Shown: positions 9,849 to 63,516 of the stretch, one piece after another
How positions within the stretch are numbered: the stretch's first letter is position 1
Layout: the number at the start of each line of letters is the position of its first letter
Position numbers and translations under genes: made by a program
Source: Janthinobacterium sp. CG3
Lineage (GTDB): Bacteria; Pseudomonadota; Gammaproteobacteria; Burkholderiales; Burkholderiaceae_D
DNA: 64,000 nt
Assembly (NCBI RefSeq): GCF_000344615.1
Contig: NZ_KB467824.1
Location: forward strand, 2,475,963-2,539,962
Reading direction: 5' to 3'
Notes under the pieces: generated by a model
What the model was told of the DNA's origin: nothing
Seen by the model: only the letters and a program-made list of their open reading frames with translations
Database searches by the model: none

Positions 9849-9933
9849 GTAGGTCGGATTAGCCAAGCGTAATCCGACGCCGAGCCGCCGCCGACGCCAG
9901 TCGGGTTACGCCGTTCCGGCTAACCCGACCTAC
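9849..9933. repeat. double-hairpin palindromic repeat (copy 2)
   Basis: The unit begins GTAGGTCGGATTAGC and ends GCTAACCCGACCTAC, so its ends are inverted repeats. Inside are two separate hairpins, one GTCGGATTAG/TAATCCGAC and one GTCGGGTTA/TAACCCGAC. Related units lie near 17275, 19719, 50047, 56276 and 62162. Confidence 0.75.
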
Positions 9934-13925: not shown

Positions 13926-14001
13926 TGGCGTCCCCAAGGGGATTCGAACCCCTGTACTCACCGTGAAAGGGTGATGTCCTAGGCCTCTAGACGATGGGGA
14001 C
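13926..14001 (-). tRNA. tRNA-Glu (TTC), copy 1
   Basis: This is a 76-nt cloverleaf with encoded CCA and anticodon loop CTTTCAC (anticodon TTC). The gene body appears identical to the three other tRNA-Glu copies. Confidence 0.95.
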
Positions 14002-14066
14002 AGAAATCTGTCCTGAATGCCGAACCGCGCATCCTGACCTGGTAGTGCCGACTGCCGAAAAAGCCT

Positions 14067-14142
14067 TGGCGTCCCCAAGGGGATTCGAACCCCTGTACTC
14101 ACCGTGAAAGGGTGATGTCCTAGGCCTCTAGACGATGGGGAC
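14067..14142 (-). tRNA. tRNA-Glu (TTC), copy 2
   Basis: This has the same 76-nt sequence and anticodon TTC as copy 1, from which it is separated by 65 bp. Confidence 0.95.
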
Positions 14143-14380
14143 CTGTGCTGATGATACCGTTCAGCGGACTCTGATTCGAGAGTTTTTTGCCCCTCAAAAA
14201 AGCGTGCGCGAAGTTTAACACGAAGCGCCGCGCTAAATCAATAGATGGGCCGCCGCCGCCAACGTTTATTTCACCAGGACAACGATAGCCGGCATACGAA
14301 AATCCGCAACTTCGCGAGCGTCATCGCGGCGGGAACCCCACGCGGTGCTGCTAGCCGGCCCAAAACAACAGGCCGACGCC

Positions 14381-14812
14381 TTATGACGTTCGCCACATCT
14401 GCATTAAGCCAATCATGTGTACCAATCCATAAGCCAGGCAAATCAGCGAACTCCAGACCAGAAAGGGCGTGGGCGGCACCTTCGCAATCGATATCAGCGG
14501 CAAAATGGCCAGACCCCTAAGCAGATAGACGATCGTGATCAACACCAGCGCCAACTCCAAAAACGGCAACCGGGCCAGCAGTCCGGCGCCGGAAAATGCA
14601 TATGCGGACCATGCCGCCAAGACCAAGGCGATGCACGAGGTGACGATCGTCGGATACAAGTGCCCGGCCTGCGCCGCCGTAGCCATCCGCTCCCCCGCGC
14701 CAAAAAAACGATACCAGGACGGGCCGCCCAGGATGATGCCGATGTGCAGCACCGCCGCGATGGCGCTCAAACATCCGCCGATCAAAAGAAGAATATTGTA
14801 GGGTTTGTTCAT
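14381..14812 (-). CDS. hypothetical four-helix membrane protein, 143 aa
   Basis: The protein starts MNKPYNILLLIGGCLSAIA and has four hydrophobic segments (about 5-28, 52-75, 81-103 and 113-137) with short polar turns, so it is an inner-membrane protein. No catalytic motif is visible and the family is not recognised. It lies between two groups of tRNA genes, on the same strand, in a stretch with more A/T than the surroundings, which suggests it was inserted there. About 240 bp between it and the tRNA-Glu at 14142 shows nothing recognisable. Confidence 0.65.
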   Translation of the reverse strand: MNKPYNILLLIGGCLSAIAAVLHIGIILGGPSWYRFFGAGERMATAAQAGHLYPTIVTSCIALVLAAWSAYAFSGAGLLARLPFLELALVLITIVYLLRGLAILPLISIAKVPPTPFLVWSSLICLAYGLVHMIGLMQMWRTS

Positions 14813-15174
14813 CAGTTAAGGGGCAGCAAGTTGAAATTGCATTCATATTAACATTTCTCGCCGCCGATATACTGGCACTGCAATTCAAAACCCTTTCATG
14901 CGTCGATTCCAAAAGGTCGCGACGGAGGAATCAGCAGCGAAGGACGCGCCAGCGTCGCGCACAACGCGGCGATCGCATCATCGACACAAGTTCGAAGCCA
15001 GTCCGATGATCGATGCGTACCTGAAAACGATTCAGCCGGCAAAATAGTGGAAATAAATACCCAAAGCGTCATCAAGGTGCCGCAAGGTAAATGGATTCAA
15101 TTGGCAAGCAACAAGCGGCCAACGCGAGACCGGGCCGGTCCGCCGCGCCAAATTGAAGATATGGAGGGGGAGGA
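14813..15174. other. gene-poor spacer with one possible small ORF
   Basis: There is no clear gene here. One frame, 14898-15047 on the plus strand, encodes 49 residues (MRRFQKVATEESAAKDAP...) ending IQPAK. It is basic, lacks a convincing ribosome-binding site and resembles nothing I know, so it is noted only as a possibility. Confidence 0.3.
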
Positions 15175-15201
15175 AAACAAAAAAGCCGCACTAGGCGGCT
15201 T
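15175..15201 (-). terminator. terminator of the second tRNA group
   Basis: On the minus strand AAGCCGC pairs with GCGGCTT and is followed by a T-rich tract (TTTTTTGTTTT). It ends the Ala-Glu-Ala-Glu tRNA group. Confidence 0.75.
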
Positions 15202-15258
15202 GATCTGTCACTTGCTATGGACGTGTTTGCCGGCGCTGGCCCCGCAAACTGTCGAAAT

Positions 15259-15334
15259 TGGCGTCCCCAAGGGGATTCGAACCCCTGTACTCACCGTGAA
15301 AGGGTGATGTCCTAGGCCTCTAGACGATGGGGAC
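15259..15334 (-). tRNA. tRNA-Glu (TTC), copy 3
   Basis: This is a 76-nt gene with CCA and anticodon TTC. It is the last gene of the four-gene group transcribed away from gltX. Confidence 0.95.
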
Positions 15335-15360
15335 CATGAACTGCTCAATTTTCTGTGCTT

Positions 15361-15436
<76 letters not shown>

Positions 15437-15499
15437 CTGGCACAGAACATTACAAACCGCGTGAACGGCTTTTACTAGCTACTGCTTTACTACGAAACC

Positions 15500-15575
15500 T
15501 GGCGTCCCCAAGGGGATTCGAACCCCTGTACTCACCGTGAAAGGGTGATGTCCTAGGCCTCTAGACGATGGGGAC
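15500..15575 (-). tRNA. tRNA-Glu (TTC), copy 4
   Basis: This is a 76-nt gene with CCA and anticodon TTC. It lies between the two tRNA-Ala genes, an alternating order that points to tandem duplication of an Ala-Glu unit. Confidence 0.95.
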
Positions 15576-15642
15576 CCTGAACTAGCATTTACTACATCTG
15601 CACCATATTCAAACTAAACGGAGAAACTTCTTTTCCATTTGC

Positions 15643-15718
<76 letters not shown>

Positions 15719-53990: not shown

Positions 53991-54399
53991 GGCGCCAAAC
54001 ACAAGCAAGAGCGCAACCCTGCGCTCAACCCGCCCGCCCGCCCCCCCGCGAAGAGCCTGCCCCTTCACTTTTCCGCCTTGCCTGGCATTCACATGCCGGG
54101 CGCATTGACGCCGCCGCAACCGCCCCATCGCGCCCAACATTTCCATCGATTTGCAAGGAAAATCAAACGGAAGGCCATTTTCCCGAGCATTCCTGTGCCC
54201 AAGCGGAGAATTCTGTTGTTTTTACGAGCAGATTGTTGGTTTTTCTTTTAATTTTCTTAAATACTCTCCAAAACTCACTTAATTATTTTTAGATAAGTTA
54301 CAATGCTGAAAAGAAATTATAGTTGCATCGACCACAACACGTCGACACCCTCTCTTTACTCCGGCTGTTCCGCGACAGCCACTACACGGGATTATTACC
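53991..54399. promoter_or_regulatory. A/T-rich leader of the ThDP-enzyme locus
   Basis: The gap holds no gene. From about 54215 to 54320 the sequence is strikingly A/T-rich for this window, ending with a possible -10 TACAAT at 54299-54304. A small hairpin, GGCTGT-TCCGCG-ACAGCC, lies at 54363-54380 in the presumed 5' leader. It is probably the promoter of the downstream locus. Confidence 0.5.
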
Positions 54400-56256
54400 A
54401 TGCTCGATACGCTTGCTCCGGAACAAGTGCGCCCACGCACTTCGCCTACCGCCCCACCCGCCCCGCCAATGGATATGGCCGACCTGCTGGTGGCCTACCT
54501 CGAACAGCTCGGCATTGAATATGTCTTCGGCATTCCCGGCGGCGCCATCGAGCCGCTCTACAACGCCCTGGCGCGCAGCGAGCGGCGCGGCGGCATTCGC
54601 CACATCCTGGCGCGCCACGAAGCCGGCGCCGCCTTCATGGCCGACGGCTACGCCCGCGAGACCGGCAAGATCGGCGTCTGCATCGCCACTTCCGGCCCCG
54701 GCGCCACCAACCTGATCACCGCCGTCGCCAGCGCCTACGAGAACAACATTCCGATGCTGGTCATCACCGGCCAGCCCGCCCTGCCCTCGTTCGGCAAGCA
54801 CCCGCTGCAGGAATCGGGCTGCACCGGCATCAACGTGCTCGGCATGTTCCGCCACTGCACCCGCTACAACTCGCTGGTCTCGCACCCCCAGCAGTTCGAA
54901 GCGAAACTGATCGCGGCGCTGCAGAGCGCCACCCGCACCCCGCGCGGCCCGGTGCACCTGTCGATCCCGGTCGACGTGTTCCGCCAGCCGACCGCCGTGA
55001 GCGCCCCCACTTACAACCTTCAGGCGCTGCTCAAGCCCTCGTCGCTGGTGGACGACGACGCCGTCGACCAGCTGCGCGGCATGCTGTCCGAAGCGCGCAA
55101 CGTGGTGCTGCTGATCGGCGGCTGGGCCGGCGACGGCATCGAGACGATCCTGCAGTTCGCCAGCCTGAAAGGCGCCACCTTCGTCACCACGCCGGACGGC
55201 AAGGGGCTGGTCAGCCCGCAGCACCCGCTGTTTCGCGGCGTGTTCGGCTTTGGCGGCCACGCGTCGGCCGAAGCGGCGTTGCGCGATCCGTCGGTCGACC
55301 TGATCGTGGCGATCGGCGCCAGCATGGGCGAATGGAACACCGGCGGCTGGAGCGACAGCCTGCTCAACGAGCGCCTGGTGCACATCGACGAATCGGAAGA
55401 CCACCTGGCGCGCACGCCGATGGCGCGCTTCCACATGCGCGGCTCGATCCGTTCGATCTTCAACCGCCTGGTCGAGCGCACCCACCAGGCGTGCCTGGAG
55501 CACGACGCCCCCACCCAAAAGCGGCGCCTGCTGCGCGAACTGGCCAACATGAACTGGGAGCCGGACAGCATCCTGGCCGCCCCGCAAGCCTTCACCAGCG
55601 AGGCCACGCCGATCAAGCCGCAGCGCCTGATGCGCGACCTGTCGCGCCTGTTCCCGCCGAGCACGCGCTTTCTGGCCGACACCGGCAACAGCGTGGCCTG
55701 GGCAACCCACTATTTGCAGCCAAGCGACCGCCGCATGGGCGAGCGGCGCATGGGCGGCAACGGGCGCAAGCGCGTGCCGGGCCAGCGCCTGACGAGCGGC
55801 GGCTGGCTGCGCGTCACGATGAACTTCGCGGCCATGGGCTGGGCCATCGGGGCTGCCATCGGCACCGCCGCGGCCAGCCCGTCGGCGCCGGTGGTCTGCA
55901 TCACCGGCGACGGCAGCATGCTGATGAACGGCCAGGAACTGTCGGTCGCGGTGGCGGAACAGCTGACCGTGGTGTTCGTCGTCCTCAACGACAGCTCGCT
56001 CGGCATGGTCAAGCACGGCCAGCGCCTGGCCAAGGCGGAACAGATCGGCTGCGCCATGCCGCCCACCGACTTCGCCATGCTGGCGCGCGCGCTGGGCGGG
56101 CGCGCCCACACCATCCTGTCGCCCGCCGACATGGACGCGCTGGATATCGACGCGATGCTGAACCACCCCGGCCCCACCCTGCTCGACGTGCGCATCGACG
56201 CCGATGAAGTACCGCCGATGAACAGCCGCATGCGCGTGCTGGCCGGCGACTTCTAA
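54400..56256 (+). CDS. thiamine-diphosphate enzyme of the acetolactate synthase superfamily
   Basis: The protein has 618 residues. The Pyr domain (25-200) has YVFGIPGGAIEPLYNAL and the catalytic Glu in ARHEAGAAFMADGYAR. The middle domain is about 215-375, and the PP domain from about 420 has CITGDGSMLMNGQELS and VLNDSSLGM, the ThDP/Mg site. It resembles the acetolactate synthase/benzoylformate decarboxylase superfamily rather than housekeeping IlvB. An extra Arg/Gly-rich segment (RRMGERRMGGNGRKRV, about 442-467) interrupts the PP-domain start. It is the first gene of a locus with citrate-synthase-like genes and a TonB receptor; the reaction is unknown. Confidence 0.85.
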   Translation: MLDTLAPEQVRPRTSPTAPPAPPMDMADLLVAYLEQLGIEYVFGIPGGAIEPLYNALARSERRGGIRHILARHEAGAAFMADGYARETGKIGVCIATSGPGATNLITAVASAYENNIPMLVITGQPALPSFGKHPLQESGCTGINVLGMFRHCTRYNSLVSHPQQFEAKLIAALQSATRTPRGPVHLSIPVDVFRQPTAVSAPTYNLQALLKPSSLVDDDAVDQLRGMLSEARNVVLLIGGWAGDGIETILQFASLKGATFVTTPDGKGLVSPQHPLFRGVFGFGGHASAEAALRDPSVDLIVAIGASMGEWNTGGWSDSLLNERLVHIDESEDHLARTPMARFHMRGSIRSIFNRLVERTHQACLEHDAPTQKRRLLRELANMNWEPDSILAAPQAFTSEATPIKPQRLMRDLSRLFPPSTRFLADTGNSVAWATHYLQPSDRRMGERRMGGNGRKRVPGQRLTSGGWLRVTMNFAAMGWAIGAAIGTAAASPSAPVVCITGDGSMLMNGQELSVAVAEQLTVVFVVLNDSSLGMVKHGQRLAKAEQIGCAMPPTDFAMLARALGGRAHTILSPADMDALDIDAMLNHPGPTLLDVRIDADEVPPMNSRMRVLAGDF

Positions 56257-56275
56257 TACCAAATCCCGGATTTTC

Positions 56276-56385
56276 GTAGGTCGGGTTAGCCCGCATGGGC
56301 GTAACCCGACTGGCGTCGGCAGCGGCCCGGCCTCGGATGACGCGTGCCGCTAATCCGACCTACGCAAGCTTAACTTAGCGGCATT
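56276..56385. repeat. double-hairpin palindromic repeat (copy 6)
   Basis: GTAGGTCGGGTTAGCC...GTAACCCGAC is followed by TGGCGTCGGCAGCGGC, a second half ending CTAATCCGACCTACG, and TTAACTTAGCGGCAT. The whole 110-bp arrangement matches the copy at 62162. Confidence 0.75.
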
Positions 56386-56435
56386 ACCGCCAGGCCCGCG
56401 GCGTCGCCGTTTCACACCAACATTCACCACACACC

Positions 56436-56561
56436 ATGAAAAAACTCGAAGGAAAAATCGCGCTGATCACCGGCGGCAGCGGCGGCATCGGCTTGGCCAG
56501 CGCCCGCCTATTCAAAGACCAGGGCGCCGAGATCGTCGGCGGCGGCATGAGTCGGTTGTAG
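56436..56561 (+). pseudogene. N-terminal stub of a short-chain dehydrogenase
   Basis: 41 codons read MKKLEGKIALITGGSGGIGL then ASARLFKDQGAEIVGGGMSRL and a stop. This is the Rossmann TGGSGGIG cofactor loop of an SDR; the remaining 200 or so residues, including the catalytic Tyr/Lys, are gone. The stop (TAG at 56559) lies within the ribosome-binding site (TAGGAG) of the next gene, so translation of the stub may feed ribosomes to it. Function as an enzyme is excluded. Confidence 0.8.
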
Positions 56562-56570
56562 GAGCGCGCC

Positions 56571-57377
56571 ATGAGTGATCAATTTCCGGATCAAATCCAG
56601 ACCAGGCTATGGCAGGAAGTCCCCTGCGCCGACGACCCGTTCAGCGCCGACACCTGCCGCGCCGGCGGCTATGACGTGTACGGCGACCTGCTTGGCAAGA
56701 TCGGCTATATCGATTATTTGTACCTGCTGTTCAAGGGCGAACGCGCCAGCGCGCGGCAGGCGCGCACCCTGTCGCTGGTGGCCGTGGCGCTGGCCAATCC
56801 CGGCCCGCGCGACCAGTCGGTGCATGCCGCCATGGCCGCCGCCAGTAGCGGCAACCCGGCCGGTTCGACGCTGATGGCGGCCATCGCGGCCGGCGCCGGC
56901 TCGGGCGGCGGCGCGCGCGAAGTGCTGCTGGCAATGCAAGCCTGGCAGCTGTGCGGCACCGACCTCGGCGCCTGGTGCGCCCACCTTGCCAACCCGCCCG
57001 AGCCGCGCCCCAAGCTGTGGCCGCGCACGGGGCACGCACCCGGCTTTGCCGCGCATGGCGTCAGCTGCGCCAAACCGGTGCGGCAACTGCTGGACGCCTT
57101 GTGCGCCGACGCGCCGGGCGAACAATTGGCATGGCTGGGCGCCAACCGCGGCGCGCTCGAAGCGTCCACCGGCATCCCGCTGGCGCAGACCGGCGTCGTC
57201 GCCGCGGCCCTGACAGCCATCGGCCTGCGCCCGGAGGAAGGCGAAATGCTGACCCTGATGCTGCGCCTGCCCGGCGCCGCCGCCCACGCGCTGGAACAGG
57301 CCCAATTGGGCTTCCGGCATTTGCCCTTCTTCGAGCTGGCACTCGACAACGATCCCGCCCGCAAGGAGGCGCCATGA
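56571..57377 (+). CDS. citrate-synthase-fold protein A (divergent)
   Basis: The protein has 268 residues and resembles the small citryl-CoA lyase/citrate synthase group (PF00285-like): YDVYGDLLGKIGYIDYLYLL, LMAAIAAGAGSGGGAREVLL and the C-terminal RLPGAAAHALEQAQLGFRHL. By eye, GGGAREV aligns with the citrate synthase HGGANE motif, so the first catalytic His is Gly. It overlaps the next gene by 4 bp (ATGA), so the two are translationally coupled and likely form one complex. The reaction is unknown. Confidence 0.65.
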   Translation: MSDQFPDQIQTRLWQEVPCADDPFSADTCRAGGYDVYGDLLGKIGYIDYLYLLFKGERASARQARTLSLVAVALANPGPRDQSVHAAMAAASSGNPAGSTLMAAIAAGAGSGGGAREVLLAMQAWQLCGTDLGAWCAHLANPPEPRPKLWPRTGHAPGFAAHGVSCAKPVRQLLDALCADAPGEQLAWLGANRGALEASTGIPLAQTGVVAAALTAIGLRPEEGEMLTLMLRLPGAAAHALEQAQLGFRHLPFFELALDNDPARKEAP

Positions 57378-58186
57378 GCAAGAATCAGGTATTGGAACAA
57401 TTCGAAGGCCCGCTGCCGACCAGCATGGGCCAGTGCTTCCCCAGCGAACGCACAGTGTTTCGCGGACTCGACCTGCATACGGCGTTCGCCGAGGCCGACT
57501 GGTTCGAGCTGTATATCTTCAGCGTTACCGGGCGCCGCCTCGCGCGCGCCGAGCTGAAGGTGCTGCAAAGCGTCTGGGTGTACACCAGCTACCCCGACGC
57601 GCGCCTGTGGTGCAATCGCGTCGCCGCCCTGGCCGGCAGCAGCCGCGGCACCGCCGGCCAGGCTCTCGGCGCCGGCATCGCCAGCTCGGAAGGGGCGATC
57701 TTCGGTCGCCAGACCGAAACCGGCTCGGCCGACTTCCTGGTGCGGGCACTGGCCGGCGTCAAGGCCGGCGAAGCGCTGGAACAGGTGGTGCGCGAGGAGC
57801 TGAAACGCAATAAACGCATCATGGGCTATGGCCGCCCGGTCGCCACACCTTACGTCGACGAACGCATTCCGGTCACGCTGACGATGATGGCGCGCGAAGG
57901 TGTTGCCATTGGTCCACACTTCCAGTTGGCGCTCGAGATCGAGGCCATGCTCGAAAAAGTGCTGGGACGGCGCCTGCCGATGACCTACGCCGCGGTGGCC
58001 GTCGCACTGCCGCTGGACATGGGTTTCTCGGAGCTGGAATGCAATTTGTACATGCAACCAGGCTTCCTCGCCGGCATGATTCCCTGCTACATCGAAGCGC
58101 TGGAACGGCCCTCCGGCGCCACCTTCGCATTGCGCTGCGACCGCATCGCTTACACAGGTGTTGCTCCACAAACATGGGAAGAGTAG
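57374..58186 (+). CDS. citrate-synthase-fold protein B (divergent)
   Basis: The protein has 270 residues and is a second, distinct member of the same fold: FELYIFSVTGRRLARAELKV, AGQALGAGIASSEGAI, and the end LRCDRIAYTGVAPQTWEE. The segment KRIMGYGRPVATPYVDERIP aligns with KIMGFGHRVYK of citrate synthase, putting Arg at the second catalytic His. It begins at ATG 57374 inside the end of gene A, with AAGGAGG upstream. It may be a heteromeric partner of A, or use another mechanism. Confidence 0.65.
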   Translation: MSKNQVLEQFEGPLPTSMGQCFPSERTVFRGLDLHTAFAEADWFELYIFSVTGRRLARAELKVLQSVWVYTSYPDARLWCNRVAALAGSSRGTAGQALGAGIASSEGAIFGRQTETGSADFLVRALAGVKAGEALEQVVREELKRNKRIMGYGRPVATPYVDERIPVTLTMMAREGVAIGPHFQLALEIEAMLEKVLGRRLPMTYAAVAVALPLDMGFSELECNLYMQPGFLAGMIPCYIEALERPSGATFALRCDRIAYTGVAPQTWEE

Positions 58187-58286
58187 CTTTCCAGCACCAT
58201 TTGAGTACATAATATCCAGAAAATGCCACCCAACCCTTGCGGAAACTGAGTCAAGTCAGCGCCTGCGCACACCGGAAGCGTTGCCA

Positions 58287-60398
58287 ATGAATGTATATGC
58301 CGGAAAAATCAAGTTGATCACCGTGGCGCTCGGCATGGCATTTGGCAGCGCCAGCGCCCAGAGCACCGATGAAGAAGAGTTGGCGATGTCGTACGGCGAC
58401 GGCGCGCTCGTCAGCATTGCCACCGGCAGCGAACAGCCGCTGGCGCGGGTGCCGGCCGTGGCCTCGGTGATCACGGCCCAGGATATCGCGGCCATGGGCG
58501 CCACCGACCTCGACCAAGTCCTGGAAAGCGTGGCCGGCCTGCACGTGGCGCTCTGGTCGGCGCCGCTCAATCCGATCTACGCCTTCCGCGGCATCGTCAG
58601 CAGCTACAACACCCAGGTGCTGATGCTGGTCAACGGCGTGCCCATCACCTCTTCCTTCATCGGCAACCGCGGCCAGGCCTGGGGCGGCATGCCGCTTGAA
58701 AACGTCGCCCGCGTCGAAATCATCCGTGGCCCCGGTTCGGCCCTGTACGGCGCCGACGCGTTTTCCGGCGTCATCAACGTCATCACCAAGTCGGCGCGCG
58801 CCATCAACGGGCTCGAAGCGGGCGTGCGCGTTGGCAGTTTCCACAACCGCGACGCCTACGTCCAGTACGGCGGCGCCGTCGGCCCCGTGCAAACGGCGCT
58901 GTACCTGCGTGCCGGGCGCACCGACAGCCAGCACGGCGTCGTCGAAAAAGACGTGCAAAGCGGCCTCGACGCCCTGTTCGGCAGCCACGTCTCGAAGGCG
59001 CCCGGGCGCATCAACGCCGCGCGCGAGACGGCCGACGCGCGCCTCGAACTGGCTTACGACGAATGGCGCCTGCGCCTCTCCGCGCAGGACCGCAAGGTGG
59101 GCATCGGCGTCGGCCTGGCCGACGCGCTCGACCCTGAAGGCGTGGTGCCGGAAACGCGCGCCTACGCCGACCTCAGCTATACCAAGGACAACTGGCTGCC
59201 CAACTGGGATGTATTGGCCACGGCCGGCACCTACGACCTGCGCGAACGGGTCGCCAATCCCGGCCTGCGCTTGTTCCCGGCGGGCGCCTTCAACGGCGCC
59301 TACCCGAACGGGGTGATCGGCAACCCGGGCCACTCGGAACGCCATCATCACCTGAGCGCCACCGCCCTCTACACCGGCTGGAACGGCCACCGGGTGCGCG
59401 TCGGCGCCGGCTACCGGCTCGAAGACCTGCGCCGCACGACCGAATTCAAGAACTTCGATTTCGTCGTCGCGCCGGGCGTCGGGCCGTCGCTGGTACCGCT
59501 GCCGGGATTGGTCGATGCCGGCACCGATCCGAACCTGCTGTATATGCAGCCGCACAAGCGCAACCTGCGCTACGCCTTCGTCCAGGACGAATGGCGGCTG
59601 GCCAAGGACTGGACCCTGACGGCCGGCGTGCGCCACGACCGCTATTCCGATTTCGGCGGCACCACCAACCCGCGCCTGGCGCTGGTGTGGGACGCCAGCT
59701 ACAACGTTATCGTCAAGGCGCTGCACGGGCGCGCCTTCCGCGCGCCGACGTTCATCGAACAATACTCGCGCAACAACCCGGTCAATGTGGGCAATCCGAA
59801 CATCAAGCCCGAAACGATCGCCATGAACGAGCTGGCCTTCGCCTGGCAGCCGCTGACCGCGCTGCAGACCAACCTGAGTCTGTTTCGCTACCAGATGAGC
59901 GACATTATCGTCGCCACCACCAACCCGGACCCCAGCACCGGCAAGACCTACCAGAACTCGGGCGACCAGTCCGGCCGCGGCGTCGAGCTGGAGGCGAACT
60001 GGGATGCGGCGCGCACGCTGCGCGTTACCGGCCACTTTTCGCTGCAAAAATCGACCGACCAGGCCAGCGGCAAGGACGCCGGGCTGGCGCCGCAGCGGCG
60101 CCTGTTCGGCCGCGCCAGCTGGCAGCTGGCGTCCAACTGGCAACTGGGCGGCATCGTCAACCACGTGGCCGACCGCGCCCGCCAGCCGGGCGACAACCGG
60201 CCGCGCGTGGCCGACTACACCACGCTCGACCTGACCTTGCGCCACCAGAAGGCGTTCGGCAACTGGGACCTGCGCGCAACCGTGCTCAACGTGTTTAACC
60301 GCGACGCGCGCGAACCGAGTTTCGCGCCGGGCAATATCCACTTCGACATCCCGCTGCCGCGCCGCGCGCTCAACGTCGAACTGGCGTATCGGATGTAG
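58287..60398 (+). CDS. TonB-dependent outer-membrane receptor
   Basis: The protein has 703 residues. The signal peptide (1-23, FGSASA), plug domain (about 45-165, with SVITAQDIAAMGATDLDQVL and IRGPGSALYGADAFSGVINV) and beta-barrel to the end (LNVELAYRM) are complete. The segment SYGDGALVSIATGSEQPLARV near the N-terminus is the typical lead into the plug of the colicin-I-receptor-like group. It is 100 bp after the citrate-synthase-like pair on the same strand, so it may import a product made by the locus or an iron-chelate. The substrate is unknown. Confidence 0.92.
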   Translation: MNVYAGKIKLITVALGMAFGSASAQSTDEEELAMSYGDGALVSIATGSEQPLARVPAVASVITAQDIAAMGATDLDQVLESVAGLHVALWSAPLNPIYAFRGIVSSYNTQVLMLVNGVPITSSFIGNRGQAWGGMPLENVARVEIIRGPGSALYGADAFSGVINVITKSARAINGLEAGVRVGSFHNRDAYVQYGGAVGPVQTALYLRAGRTDSQHGVVEKDVQSGLDALFGSHVSKAPGRINAARETADARLELAYDEWRLRLSAQDRKVGIGVGLADALDPEGVVPETRAYADLSYTKDNWLPNWDVLATAGTYDLRERVANPGLRLFPAGAFNGAYPNGVIGNPGHSERHHHLSATALYTGWNGHRVRVGAGYRLEDLRRTTEFKNFDFVVAPGVGPSLVPLPGLVDAGTDPNLLYMQPHKRNLRYAFVQDEWRLAKDWTLTAGVRHDRYSDFGGTTNPRLALVWDASYNVIVKALHGRAFRAPTFIEQYSRNNPVNVGNPNIKPETIAMNELAFAWQPLTALQTNLSLFRYQMSDIIVATTNPDPSTGKTYQNSGDQSGRGVELEANWDAARTLRVTGHFSLQKSTDQASGKDAGLAPQRRLFGRASWQLASNWQLGGIVNHVADRARQPGDNRPRVADYTTLDLTLRHQKAFGNWDLRATVLNVFNRDAREPSFAPGNIHFDIPLPRRALNVELAYRM

Positions 60399-60470: not shown

Positions 60471-61712
60471 TCATTCAACGCCAGACAACCCTACTTCCCC
60501 CACCACGCCAGCCAGCAGTTGGGCGCTGCCGCAGGCCAGCGTCCAACCAAGCGCGCCGTGGCCGGTGTTGACGAACACGTTCGGCACAGAGGTCCGGCCG
60601 ATGATCGGCGCGCCGCCCGGCGTGGCCGGCCGCAAGCCGGCCCAGGGCGCCACACCGGCCGCCGCGTCCCCGTCGTCCAGCGCCGGGAACAGGCGCCGCG
60701 CCTGCCGCGCCAGCGCCTGCCAGCGGCGCTGGTCCAGGCTCAGGTCGGCGCCGACGATGTCGACCCGCCCGGCCACGCGCAGGCGCGCGCCAAGGCGCGC
60801 GTAGACGATTTTATTGGCCAGGTCGGTAACGCTGACCGACGGCAGGCCGGCCGCCGGGTCGGCCGCGAACGTGACGCTGTAGCCCTTGAGCGGATAAATC
60901 GGCAGCGCAAAGCCCATCTGCGCGGCGCTCTTGACGCTGCCGACGCCGTTGGCCAGCACGAAGGCGTCGGCGCCGATATCGCCCGCCGGCGAGCGCAACG
61001 CCACTACCCTGCCGCCCGCCATGACGACGCCGTCGACGGCCGTGTCGAGCGCGAAGCGCACCGGATTCGCCTGCAGCGCCAGCGCCGCCGCCAACTGCTG
61101 GCAAAATTCCCCGCAATCGCCGACCTGCTCGGACGGCGTGTAGACGCCGCCCGACCAGCGCGCCCGCGAGGCCGCCAGCGCCGGCTCGATGTCGACGCAG
61201 CGCCCGGACGACAGCACCTGCTGCTCGCAACCCAGGCCGCGCTGCACCTCGACCTGGCGCCGCGCGGCCTCCAGCGCGGCCGCCGACGCCAGCATCACCA
61301 GCTTGCCGGCGCTGCGCAGGTCGAACTCCAGCTTCAGTTCACGCTGCAGCTCGGCCAGGCAGTCACGGCTAAAAAAGGCCAGCCGCAGCAGCTCGGCGGT
61401 GGTGCGCGCCGACGCGCCGGCGTTGCAGGCCATCAGGAAGCGCGCGATCCAGCGCCACTGCGCGGCGTCGAACGCCGGCCGCCAGCTCAGCGGCGAATCG
61501 CGGTGCAGCAGGTACTTCGGCAGGTTGCGCCATACCGAGGCGTCGGCCAGCGGCGCCACGTAGGAATAACTCAGCTGGGCGCCATTGGCCAGGCTGGCGC
61601 CCTGCCCGACCCGCGCGTGCGCGTCGACCACGCTCACCTCGTGGCCGCGGCGCGCCAGCGCATAGGCCGAAGTCAGACCGACAACGCCGGCCCCGAGCAC
61701 GCATATTTTCAT
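60471..61712 (-). CDS. dadA: D-amino acid dehydrogenase small subunit
   Basis: This FAD flavoprotein of 413 residues has the N-terminal dinucleotide-binding motif CVLGAGVVGLTSAYALARRG, GASLANGAQLSYSY and the C-terminal GLRPATPGGAPIIG and NTGHGALGWTLACGS. It oxidises D-amino acids to 2-oxo acids and passes electrons to the quinone pool. ATG 61712 (MKICVLGAGV) is fixed by the motif. Its start overlaps the stop of a decayed puuD by 4 bp, evidence of a former operon. Confidence 0.93.
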   Translation of the reverse strand: MKICVLGAGVVGLTSAYALARRGHEVSVVDAHARVGQGASLANGAQLSYSYVAPLADASVWRNLPKYLLHRDSPLSWRPAFDAAQWRWIARFLMACNAGASARTTAELLRLAFFSRDCLAELQRELKLEFDLRSAGKLVMLASAAALEAARRQVEVQRGLGCEQQVLSSGRCVDIEPALAASRARWSGGVYTPSEQVGDCGEFCQQLAAALALQANPVRFALDTAVDGVVMAGGRVVALRSPAGDIGADAFVLANGVGSVKSAAQMGFALPIYPLKGYSVTFAADPAAGLPSVSVTDLANKIVYARLGARLRVAGRVDIVGADLSLDQRRWQALARQARRLFPALDDGDAAAGVAPWAGLRPATPGGAPIIGRTSVPNVFVNTGHGALGWTLACGSAQLLAGVVGEVGLSGVE

Positions 61713-62148
61713 GATTGCCACCTCGATTCCATCCGTACTTCCCGGTACGCCCGCGCGGCCCGCACCAGCGCCGCGAAAAAATCGCCCTCGCAGGCGTTGG
61801 CCAGGCACTCGGGATGCCACTGCACACCGGCGCAAAAGGCCTGCCGGTCGACCTCGACCGCCTCGACCACGCCGTCGTCGGCCAGCGCCGTCATGGCCGG
61901 CATCGCGCTGCCGGCCATGACGTCCCGGTGGCGCAGGCTATTTACTCGGCAGCGCCCGACGCCCAGGATGCGCCGCGCAGGCGGCGGCCATCGACCAGGT
62001 TGACGGCGTGCGCCCCCAGCTTACACGGCGCGCTCTGTTTATGCTCGACGCGCGTGCCGACGTCCGCCGGACCGAGGCCGACGCCGGCGACCCGCGCCAG
62101 GCCACCACGGTTGCCCCAAAGCTGGTCGACACCAAGGTCAACGCCCCA
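61709..62148 (-). pseudogene. puuD: decayed gamma-glutamyl-GABA hydrolase (PuuD-like)
   Basis: The last 70 or so codons (ALADDGVVEAVEVDRQAFCA then GVQWHPE) keep the His/Glu end of the class I amidotransferase triad. Further upstream, in another frame, pieces such as VDLGVDQLWG and VEHKQSAPCKLGAHAV match the middle of PuuD, with a stop at 61942-61944 and a deletion between. The N-terminal half with the nucleophilic Cys is not recognisable. The enzyme is dead, but its end still overlaps the dadA start. Confidence 0.65.
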
Positions 62149-62287: not shown

Positions 62288-62729
62288 GGGTCAAACCCCG
62301 AGGATCCGGCTCCGCCGTTGGCGGGCGTCACGTAGAGCGCCGCTGTGGGTGCCCGTGCTGTCCATATTCATTGTTGTCCGTTGCAAAATGGGGGGTGTAA
62401 GCCGGAACCGCCGGAAATTCCGTCACCCAAACCAATCCAGAATCCAGACATGAACGTATCCGGGTCGATGAGCCTGCCGTTGCCCTGGAATTTGAGCGGT
62501 CGAACACGATAATGTTGCCACGCAGGCGAACAATTGGCGCTGCGTGAAGACGTTGGATACGCGCACCTTGGTATGGATCCCCGGATTAGTCGAGGACGGC
62601 CCTTTTCACGAATGAAGAGAGTTGTTCAAACCGCCTGCGGGCGTTATCGCACATACGTAATGGGGTATCCGGCTTATTGTGTTCATTCTTGGGCATATGT
62701 GTCCATCCTCCCCGAACAAGGAGCCAAAT
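62288..62729. other. spacer without recognisable gene
   Basis: About 440 bp of mixed composition. Open frames exist but are short, overlap the following gene and have no familiar content. A short AAGGAG at 62718 is the ribosome-binding site of the next gene. Confidence 0.4.
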
Positions 62730-63092
62730 ATGAAAACTACGACATCAGCACCCTCTGCACAAGCCCTGAATATGCAGTCCTGCATCGACGCTTGTTCATC
62801 GTGCCACCAAGTCTGCCTGCAAATGGCCATGAATCATTGCCTCGACAGCGGAGGAAAACACGTTGAGCCGGAACACTTTCGGCTCATGATTAACTGCGCT
62901 GATATCTGCCAGACTTCGGCCAATCTGCAGCTGAGCGGCTCCACCTTCAGTAGCCAGCTGTGCGAGTTGTGTGCCAACGTGTGCGAAGCATGCGCCGATA
63001 ATTGCCGCACTCTGGACGGCATGGAAGACTGCGTTCGCGCCTGCCAAGCGTGCGCCGCCAGCTGCCGCAGCATGGCCACGATGAAGCACTGA
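62730..63092 (+). CDS. cysteine-rich four-helix-bundle copper-binding protein (Csp-like)
   Basis: The protein has 120 residues. Repeated Cys-x2/3-Cys spacing (CIDACSSCHQVC, CADICQ, LCELCANVCEACADNC, CVRACQACAASC) puts many cysteines along four amphipathic helices. This is the pattern of Csp copper-storage proteins (DUF326) that bind Cu(I) in the bundle core. No signal peptide is seen, so it is probably cytosolic (Csp3-like). The start is ATG 62730 behind AAGGAG. It is followed 25 bp later by a DUF305 gene, probably as one operon. Confidence 0.85.
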   Translation: MKTTTSAPSAQALNMQSCIDACSSCHQVCLQMAMNHCLDSGGKHVEPEHFRLMINCADICQTSANLQLSGSTFSSQLCELCANVCEACADNCRTLDGMEDCVRACQACAASCRSMATMKH

Positions 63093-63117
63093 CCACTCGA
63101 CGGACAAGGAGAATCGT

Positions 63118-63516
63118 ATGATTTTGAAGAACAATAGGATCGGTCCGGTACTGGTCCCCTCACTAGCTCTCGCGCTGGCCACCGCCATGCCACTACCCGC
63201 GTTCGCACAGTCCGCTTCTGCCATGCCCACCCATAGCGCGATGGCGGCGCCATCGACGGACGTCGGGATGAAAATGCGGAAGTCAATGGATGATATGCAT
63301 GAAAAGATGGGCCAGATGAAAATGTCCGGCGATGTCGATCATGATTTCGTAATGCTGATGAAATCACATCATCAGGGCGCCATTGAAATGGCTCAGATGG
63401 AGGTCGATTCTGGCAAAGATGCCGCTGCGATCAAGTCGGCGAAGAAGATTATTTCGGCGCAAAAGAAGGAGATCGCCGCGTTCGACGATTGGCTCAGCAA
63501 ACATCCCATGAAGTAG
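63118..63516 (+). CDS. exported DUF305-family protein
   Basis: The protein has 132 residues. The signal peptide (about 1-30, LALATAMPLPAFAQ) is followed by a Met/His-rich helical domain with MHEKMGQMKM, HDFVMLMKSHHQGAIEMAQM and ISAQKKEIAAFDDWL. DUF305 proteins are ferritin-like and often sit with copper-resistance genes; the Met and His residues could bind Cu. AAGGAG lies 8 bp before the ATG. It is the second gene of a two-gene copper-type operon. Confidence 0.85.
   Translation: MILKNNRIGPVLVPSLALALATAMPLPAFAQSASAMPTHSAMAAPSTDVGMKMRKSMDDMHEKMGQMKMSGDVDHDFVMLMKSHHQGAIEMAQMEVDSGKDAAAIKSAKKIISAQKKEIAAFDDWLSKHPMK

Follow-up and report, generated by a model that had tools for sequence, protein, structure and literature searches.

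In hydroxyketone signalling, of which CqsA/CqsS and LqsA/LqsS are examples, a synthase gene has a sensor kinase of its own. CqsA and LqsA are pyridoxal phosphate enzymes, and we know of no TonB receptor or PF04392 binding protein in these systems. In siderophore uptake through TonB-dependent receptors, the receptor is co-inherited with the synthesis genes and other receptors serve piracy. Here, we describe an operon of Janthinobacterium sp. CG3 that compares with both. It lies at positions 54,400 to 60,398 of a stretch of 64,000 nucleotides of contig NZ_KB467824.1, the whole of which is called the window below. It encodes an enzyme dependent on thiamine diphosphate (ThDP), two proteins of citryl-CoA-lyase fold (CS-A and CS-B; CoA, coenzyme A) and a TonB-dependent receptor. 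We propose, with a probability of about 50%, that these genes belong to a conserved biosynthesis-and-sensing system, whose molecule would be made by the cell itself, imported through TonB and sensed. Such a system would share with hydroxyketone signalling a synthase gene accompanied by a sensor kinase and, as we guess, a product of hydroxyketone type, although its synthase would be a ThDP enzyme. It shares with siderophore systems a receptor co-inherited with putative synthesis genes and the existence of receptor-only genomes. It differs from them in that weak tests gave no hallmark of iron regulation or siderophore assembly and in that its partner is a sensor module.

Conservation and co-occurrence of the operon

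The open reading frame (ORF) list and domain scans confirm a set of genes on the same strand, and the gene list and coordinates of the preliminary description of this DNA were right. The features are as follows.

54190..54399, plus strand: A/T-rich upstream region (GC 0.53 in 54000-54499), presumed to include the operon promoter
54400..56256, plus strand: ThDP-dependent carboligase-like enzyme of the acetohydroxyacid synthase (AHAS) superfamily, in a subfamily of its own; 618 aa; Pfam TPP_enzyme N/M/C
56272..56367, no strand: inverted repeat resembling a repetitive extragenic palindrome (REP-like), 19-nt arms, dispersed in the genome and probably outside the system
56436..56561, plus strand: remnant (41 aa) of a short-chain dehydrogenase/reductase (SDR) gene that seems to have lost its middle part in frame
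56571..57377, plus strand: CS-A, predicted citryl-CoA-lyase-fold protein without citrate-synthase catalytic residues; 268 aa
57374..58186, plus strand: CS-B, predicted citryl-CoA-lyase-fold protein with replaced catalytic residues and invariant residues of its own; 270 aa
58287..60398, plus strand: TonB-dependent receptor, Pfam plug and barrel; nearest solved sequences Cir and BtuB

Scanning genome contigs with CS-B gave 24 loci, and 15 further regions of 10-20 kb brought the set to 39. The 24 loci come mostly from Burkholderiales and other betaproteobacteria, plus two desulfuromonad metagenome-assembled genomes (MAGs; L029 and L038) and one Moraxellaceae MAG. The preliminary description would have been given up if related genomes had no conserved neighbourhood. 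The neighbourhood is conserved: CS-A adjoins CS-B in 23 of the 24 loci (the exception, L046, starts at a contig end), the ThDP gene is found in 19 and the receptor in 20. Three of the loci without the ThDP gene are cut by contig ends (L031, L033 and L046); the other two (L026 and L043) have sequence on the relevant side without it, and L026 appears to be the same genome as G082, where the ThDP gene sits on another contig. The 15 further regions all have the ThDP gene, 14 have CS-A and 11 the receptor. Furthermore, four loci of a distant genus (f78) hold the core set together in a different gene order; their four core proteins show 27-38% identity, and the binding protein described below shows 24-26% (three of the four loci at threshold). 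The 4-bp overlap of CS-A and CS-B (57374-57377 in the window) recurs in 20 of 25 pairs, a count that leans towards overlap since a script chose starts near the expected place. Across 25 loci the cassette proteins co-vary (r 0.65-0.89, shared ancestry not removed).

The distribution is patchy. Of 398 genomes sampled from the phylum, 10 match CS-B at E 1e-15, counting that of the window. In the genus, a CS-B match was found in only two genomes besides the window's (a separate search covered 40 genomes of the genus). A tblastn search of a plasmid collection with CS-B gave no match. Some loci carry several copies: a Rhodocyclales MAG has a tandem CSA-CSB-CSA-CSB-CSB array (L024, 9186-13651), and Pseudoduganella namucuonensis has two ThDP-CSA-CSB sets with sulfotransferases (L023, 1054-10810).

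Co-occurrence was then scored in 198 related genomes, with presence set at E <=1e-55 for CS-B, 1e-150 for the ThDP protein, 1e-120 for the receptor and 1e-30 for the PF04392 binding protein. A further nine genomes, whose CS-B matches were weaker (E 7e-4 to 7e-10), were set aside, these matches being taken for ordinary members of the citrate synthase family. By these limits, 13 genomes carry the ThDP protein, 11 carry CS-B, 14 the receptor and 17 the binding protein. The ThDP protein accompanies CS-B in each of its 11 genomes. The binding protein accompanies the ThDP protein in every one of its 13 genomes and the receptor does so in 12; the remaining genome, G082, is 68% complete. In four genomes the binding protein occurs but the ThDP protein does not: G045 (73% complete), G059 (86%, with a partial match), G154 and G187 (both 99%). 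In G154 and G187, the locus consists of receptor, binding protein and sensor with no match to the ThDP protein, CS-A or CS-B there, and searches of these 99% complete drafts found neither CS-B (at E 1e-3) nor the ThDP protein (at E 1e-150). G045 has a receptor fragment at a contig end, together with the binding protein and the sensor.

The SDR stub of the preliminary description is present and can be refined to a 41-aa remnant whose middle seems to have been deleted: about 35 N-terminal residues, as in the SDR of relatives, are joined to GGGMSRL, and several relatives end in VVDGGMSLL. With the SDR of L028 as query, a near-full-length match was found in 14 of the 24 loci, to which a contig-end fragment in L031 can be added (15/24). 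A relative's SDR finds no full-length match above 37-38% in the window's genome.

The ThDP enzyme and the CS-A/CS-B pair

Like the AHAS large subunit, the ThDP protein has the three-domain ThDP fold, the cofactor glutamate and the GDG...N motif. Its TPP_enzyme N/M/C domains score far above the Pfam cut-off. The cofactor residues E74, G503-D504-G505 and N530 are invariant in the alignment of 25 members (25/25). The protein should therefore be an active ThDP enzyme, given the intact cofactor-activating glutamate and GDG...N motif. Unlike the AHAS large subunit, it stays below the cut-off of every NCBIfam model, AHAS ones included, among the best 25 of 59; for instance, it scores 318.6 bits with the AHAS equivalog TIGR00118, against a cut-off of 538.35. 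In addition, the ARFDDR segment of AHAS I, which we take to contain the arginine that binds the 2-oxo acid at the acceptor site, aligns with ASMGEW. We reject a plain acetolactate synthase on the sub-cut-off AHAS scores and the changed acceptor residues.

A second motif, LGMVKHGQ, includes G540, which is invariant in 25/25 members; this is presumably the region of the AHAS acceptor-pocket residue that binds the second 2-oxo acid. The best matches of the protein by sequence in the PDB are BbmA, CsmA and AHAS I, with BbmA first and CsmA third. The residue mutated in BbmA-G484F (PDB 8x3x/8x3y/8xod) aligns with G540, and CsmA (PDB 8x3z) has an MVxHG motif in common with the ThDP protein. The likeness to BbmA and CsmA is limited to this one protein, and no function is carried over from them. 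A bacillimidazole origin of the name BbmA was considered and dropped, as the excerpted passages of PMC8779896 name no such enzyme. Where ThDP paralogues occur without a CS pair (L109-L111), the genes around them are different ones, among them PI-PLC-X and GGDEF/EAL genes. In two of these loci, a paralogue of the same subfamily without a nearby CS pair adjoins a PI-PLC-X domain protein (L110, 9025-12229; L111, 5913-9232).

CS-A and CS-B are most similar to citryl-CoA lyase, a short member of the citrate synthase family (PDB 6hxp, the lyase module of ACLY), with which they share a length of about 265 aa, the best fold match and the best sequence families, the latter below cut-off. The Pfam family Citrate_synt matches CS-A at E 4e-5 and CS-B at E 2e-5, both below the gathering score, and the NCBIfam 'citryl-CoA lyase' models (PRK06224-type) reach E 9e-13 and E 3e-12 at best, far below cut-off; no Pfam or NCBIfam model attains its cut-off for either protein. 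The predicted models of both have 6hxp as their best Foldseek match. That of CS-A is a good model (E 3e-8, TM 0.70, rmsd 5.1, pLDDT 85), while that of CS-B is poor in places and gives a bad superposition over the full length (E 3e-9, TM 0.64, rmsd 13.9, pLDDT 77); the CS-B sequence profile also retrieves 6hxp (E 4e-10). As judged from these models, both proteins have the citrate-synthase/citryl-CoA-lyase fold.

However, they differ from citryl-CoA lyase in being two different tandem subunits, in the replacement of the catalytic His/His/Asp and in the distinct set of residues that are invariant in CS-B. The family alignments omit the CS-A of L044 (overlong start), the CS-B of L026 and L046 (cut by contig ends) and all distant L088-L096 sequences. 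We checked the catalytic residues with 6hxp and the genome's own GltA as references. In CS-B, the catalytic histidine of HGG is replaced by Y/F, that of GYGH by R and the aspartate of NVD by A/G/S/T, each in 26/26 sequences. In CS-A, the first histidine is kept in 3/25, the second in 1/25 and the aspartate in 0/25, a placement that is less certain since GltA itself is misaligned at the aspartate column. The arginine of the DPR motif, which binds the substrate carboxylate, is kept in CS-B (26/26) and is a histidine in 21/25 CS-A. We reject a plain citrate synthase or citryl-CoA lyase function for both proteins on these residues. Moreover, CS-B has 40 invariant columns, including W68-VYTSYPD-R77-W79-N81-R82, R154, D162-E163-R164 and D215, and several of them (P74, R154 and R164) align with the citrate-synthase active site. 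Since many residues are invariant in CS-B itself, some of them at active-site positions, its site would be re-purposed rather than dead.

A possible make-and-sense system and its alternatives

The receptor has TonB plug and beta-barrel domains, both above the Pfam cut-off. A PF04392 (ABC_sub_bind) periplasmic binding protein is encoded in 19/39 loci, and in 15 of these 19 a linked sensor N-terminus was matched. These counts come from the neighbourhood search of the 39 loci; the gene clustering of the 24 loci had merged kinase/GGDEF proteins in one cluster (c4), including the window's upstream GGDEF gene. The scanned sensors combine HisKA/HATPase, receiver, Hpt, GGDEF and EAL domains variably. 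An sCache_4 domain scores above cut-off in the sensor of L034; those of L089, L117 and L118 match sCache_4 or CHASE8 only weakly. A giant Ser/Thr kinase-AAA-GAF-histidine kinase protein comes after the core in the f86 loci (L095 and L096, both of the two scanned among three loci), and in L095, the one scanned for this, a LuxR-type response regulator comes next. The giant kinases lie at 11025-19877 in L095 and 10892-16075 in L096; beyond its LuxR-type regulator, L095 continues with SDR-like and FkbH-like proteins.

The window's operon has no such binding protein beside it. Elsewhere on the chromosome, its genome encodes two of them at ~920.0-922.2 kb of C1 and, at 915.5-919.9 kb, a HisKA-RR-Hpt-GGDEF-EAL hybrid sensor that is 60-66% identical to the sensors located beside the ThDP gene in G098 and G047. 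The synthase/receptor half and the binding protein/sensor half are thus both kept, at separate loci. Tailoring genes occur near the core in a part of the 39 loci: a Sulfotransfer_3 gene in 6/39, an adenosine 5'-phosphosulfate (APS) kinase in 5/39 and a cytochrome P450 in 4/39, and a sulfotransferase is also found in L107 and L112. These genes suggest that some members of the family probably make a sulfated or hydroxylated product. One sulfotransferase query, run without a positive control, had no match in the window's genome.

The basis of the proposed system is gene content, conservation, co-occurrence, predicted fold and residue replacements. From these we infer its substrate, product, complex formation, export, receptor-ligand match and signalling as follows. 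The ThDP enzyme would join an acyl anion derived from a 2-oxo acid to an acceptor other than that of AHAS, probably a larger one, to give an acyloin or an alpha-hydroxy-keto compound. CS-A and CS-B may form a hetero-oligomer of citryl-CoA-lyase fold, in which the remodelled CS-B site would act on the intermediate, possibly a CoA ester or a carboxylate, by a chemistry other than that of citrate synthase. In many relatives the SDR could reduce an intermediate, and in some of them the P450 and a sulfotransferase dependent on 3'-phosphoadenosine 5'-phosphosulfate could tailor it. The product would leave the cell, re-enter through the TonB receptor and be bound by the PF04392 periplasmic protein. 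The latter would report to the hybrid kinase or GGDEF/EAL sensor, with a phosphorelay and cyclic di-GMP (c-di-GMP) as output. A self-made and sensed molecule is the simplest account because the genes co-occur, because both halves are kept in the window's genome although they are split there and because receptor-only sets persist. The conserved neighbourhood and the co-occurrence of synthase-like genes and receptor support, within the limits of these tests, the earlier suggestion that the locus makes a molecule and takes it back up.

Several observations weigh against this proposal. The ThDP protein of the two desulfuromonad MAGs is just 35-37% identical and is encoded on the opposite strand. 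The receptor is missing in L024, L026, L029 and L037; L026 and L037 are cut by contig ends, whereas L024 and L029 have downstream sequence. L093-L096 have ThDP-CSA-CSB (no CS-A was detected in L096) without a nearby receptor or binding protein. Moreover, the ThDP protein occurs without CS-B in G178 (100% complete) and G047 (80%), which indicates that the CS pair is not always needed; the row of G178 is receptor-sulfotransferase-ThDP-binding protein-sensor. This copy of the system could be decaying or rewired, given that the window retains just a remnant of the SDR and that its operon is not linked to the sensor. The presence thresholds were set after the first results, and only the best few candidates per genome were scored (e.g. 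5-6 for the receptor and the ThDP protein). The Fisher values (3e-17 to 5e-13 for pairs involving the ThDP protein or CS-B, and 3e-10 for the ThDP protein and binding protein by genus) count the window's own genome, treat related genomes as independent and are guides only. In addition, L026/G082, L037/G081 and L046/G034 are the same genomes, so that the 24 loci and the 198 genomes are partly overlapping lines of evidence. Finally, TonB receptor, binding protein and sensor could also be compatible with nutrient sensing, and the receptor-only genomes also fit siderophore piracy.

There are three alternatives, each of which we consider improbable. In the first, the enzymes would make an alpha-hydroxy-carboxylate chelator, the receptor would recover its metal complex and the sensor would report its supply. 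Acetolactate-type products are indeed alpha-hydroxy acids. The nearest solved relatives of the receptor are Cir and BtuB, siderophore-receptor profiles match it below cut-off, and the receptor-only genomes resemble siderophore piracy. However, no Fur-box-like site was found in the window (one consensus with <=3 mismatches, a weak test). No siderophore-assembly family or synthetase (nonribosomal peptide synthetase or NRPS-independent siderophore synthetase, NRPS/NIS) was found among the 26 proteins scanned, a subset of the neighbours, and no siderophore synthetase among the nine gene clusters present in at least 4 of the 24 loci. Furthermore, the core is partnered by a binding protein and a sensor, and the CS-fold pair lacks the citrate-synthase residues. 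In these weak tests the metallophore reading thus gains no specific support. The preliminary description had raised the possibility of a polycarboxylate metallophore; with the catalytic His/His/Asp gone in nearly all members and neither a Fur-box-like site nor a siderophore-assembly family found in these searches, its production by citrate-synthase condensation is unsupported. The other suggestion, another signal, is the better fit as a putative function, in view of the binding protein and sensor that are linked to the core.

An uptake system for catabolism, in which the receptor would import an environmental compound, the sensor detect it and the ThDP, SDR and CS-fold enzymes degrade it, has a similarly low probability. 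A receptor with a binding protein and a sensor suits substrate sensing. P450 and SDR neighbours occur in catabolic loci, and the AHAS superfamily includes lyases, with 2-hydroxyacyl-CoA lyase among the PDB matches of the ThDP protein. Nevertheless, genes for beta-oxidation, CoA ligation or ring opening are absent from the nine clusters of at least 4/24 loci (in L093, one AMP-binding gene comes after the core), the sulfotransferase and APS kinase of a subset point to building, and the receptor, binding protein and sensor persist without the enzymes.

It is also doubtful, to much the same degree, that the operon makes an antibiotic-like or envelope compound, for which receptor and sensor would provide feedback or immunity and not communication. 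The tailoring genes are variable, as in secondary metabolism, but no export or resistance gene was found in the nine clusters of at least 4/24 loci, and co-occurrence is as close on the sensor side as on the synthase side. A chance grouping of unrelated genes, which the rarity of the operon in its own genus (two other genomes with a CS-B match) might suggest, is already refuted by the conserved neighbourhood, the recurrent CS-A/CS-B overlap and the co-occurrence.

Other features of the window and implications

The A/T richness noted upstream of the ThDP gene in the preliminary description is confirmed (GC 0.53 in 54000-54499 versus ~0.69 inside the gene), while its role as a promoter is unproven, since a consensus scan found no plus-strand sigma-70-like site upstream of 54400 and only a minus-strand one at 54345-54316. 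CS-B (57374-58186) is contained within a longer ORF of the ORF list. The receptor most likely starts at the ATG at 58287, where a signal-peptide-like start is visible by eye, and not at the upstream GTG at 58158. The REP-like inverted repeat (56272-56367) separates the ThDP gene from the SDR remnant, and a second copy is found at 9849-9933, with the core GTAGGTCGGGTTAGC. A 14-base core of it has 8 near-matches in the window against 0.16 expected, and an 18-base core has 14 exact matches in the genome, its reversed control having 0.

The operon is flanked by an FAD-dependent amino-acid-oxidase-like gene (60474-61718). Over its full length, this gene matches none of 39 congeners at more than 46%; partial matches that are closer, of 58% and 69%, are confined to G034, also an operon carrier. 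Further on, a locally low-GC region (62694-63516) encodes a small Cys-rich DUF326 protein, then a second small secreted-looking protein. At the other side of the window, six minus-strand tRNA genes are clustered at 13926-15718 (four tRNA-Glu and two tRNA-Ala within 1.8 kb).

The preliminary description knew of no described pathway with this set of genes, and combined-term searches of open-licence papers gave none either, which is weak evidence of absence. As far as checked, the enzyme set and the TonB/PF04392 sensing route are undescribed, while small molecules that are made and sensed are a known class. It is a tentative extension, to which we give somewhat less credence than to the make-and-sense system itself, that these genes represent a new class of bacterial chemical communication. 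It would comprise a ThDP/pseudo-citrate-synthase signal, sometimes sulfated, a TonB/PF04392/kinase-c-di-GMP readout and receptor-only eavesdroppers, and CS-A/CS-B would be a new catalytic family on the citrate-synthase fold.

If the proposal holds, an unrecognised make-and-sense system would be spread patchily over Proteobacteria, plus two desulfuromonad MAGs. It would unite a re-purposed citrate-synthase fold, a ThDP enzyme with an altered acceptor site and a c-di-GMP or phosphorelay output. Moreover, the gene set permits a direct comparison of genomes that have synthase and receptor with those that have the receptor only. The family may represent a bacterial signal, or a system of shared chemicals, that has not been described before.

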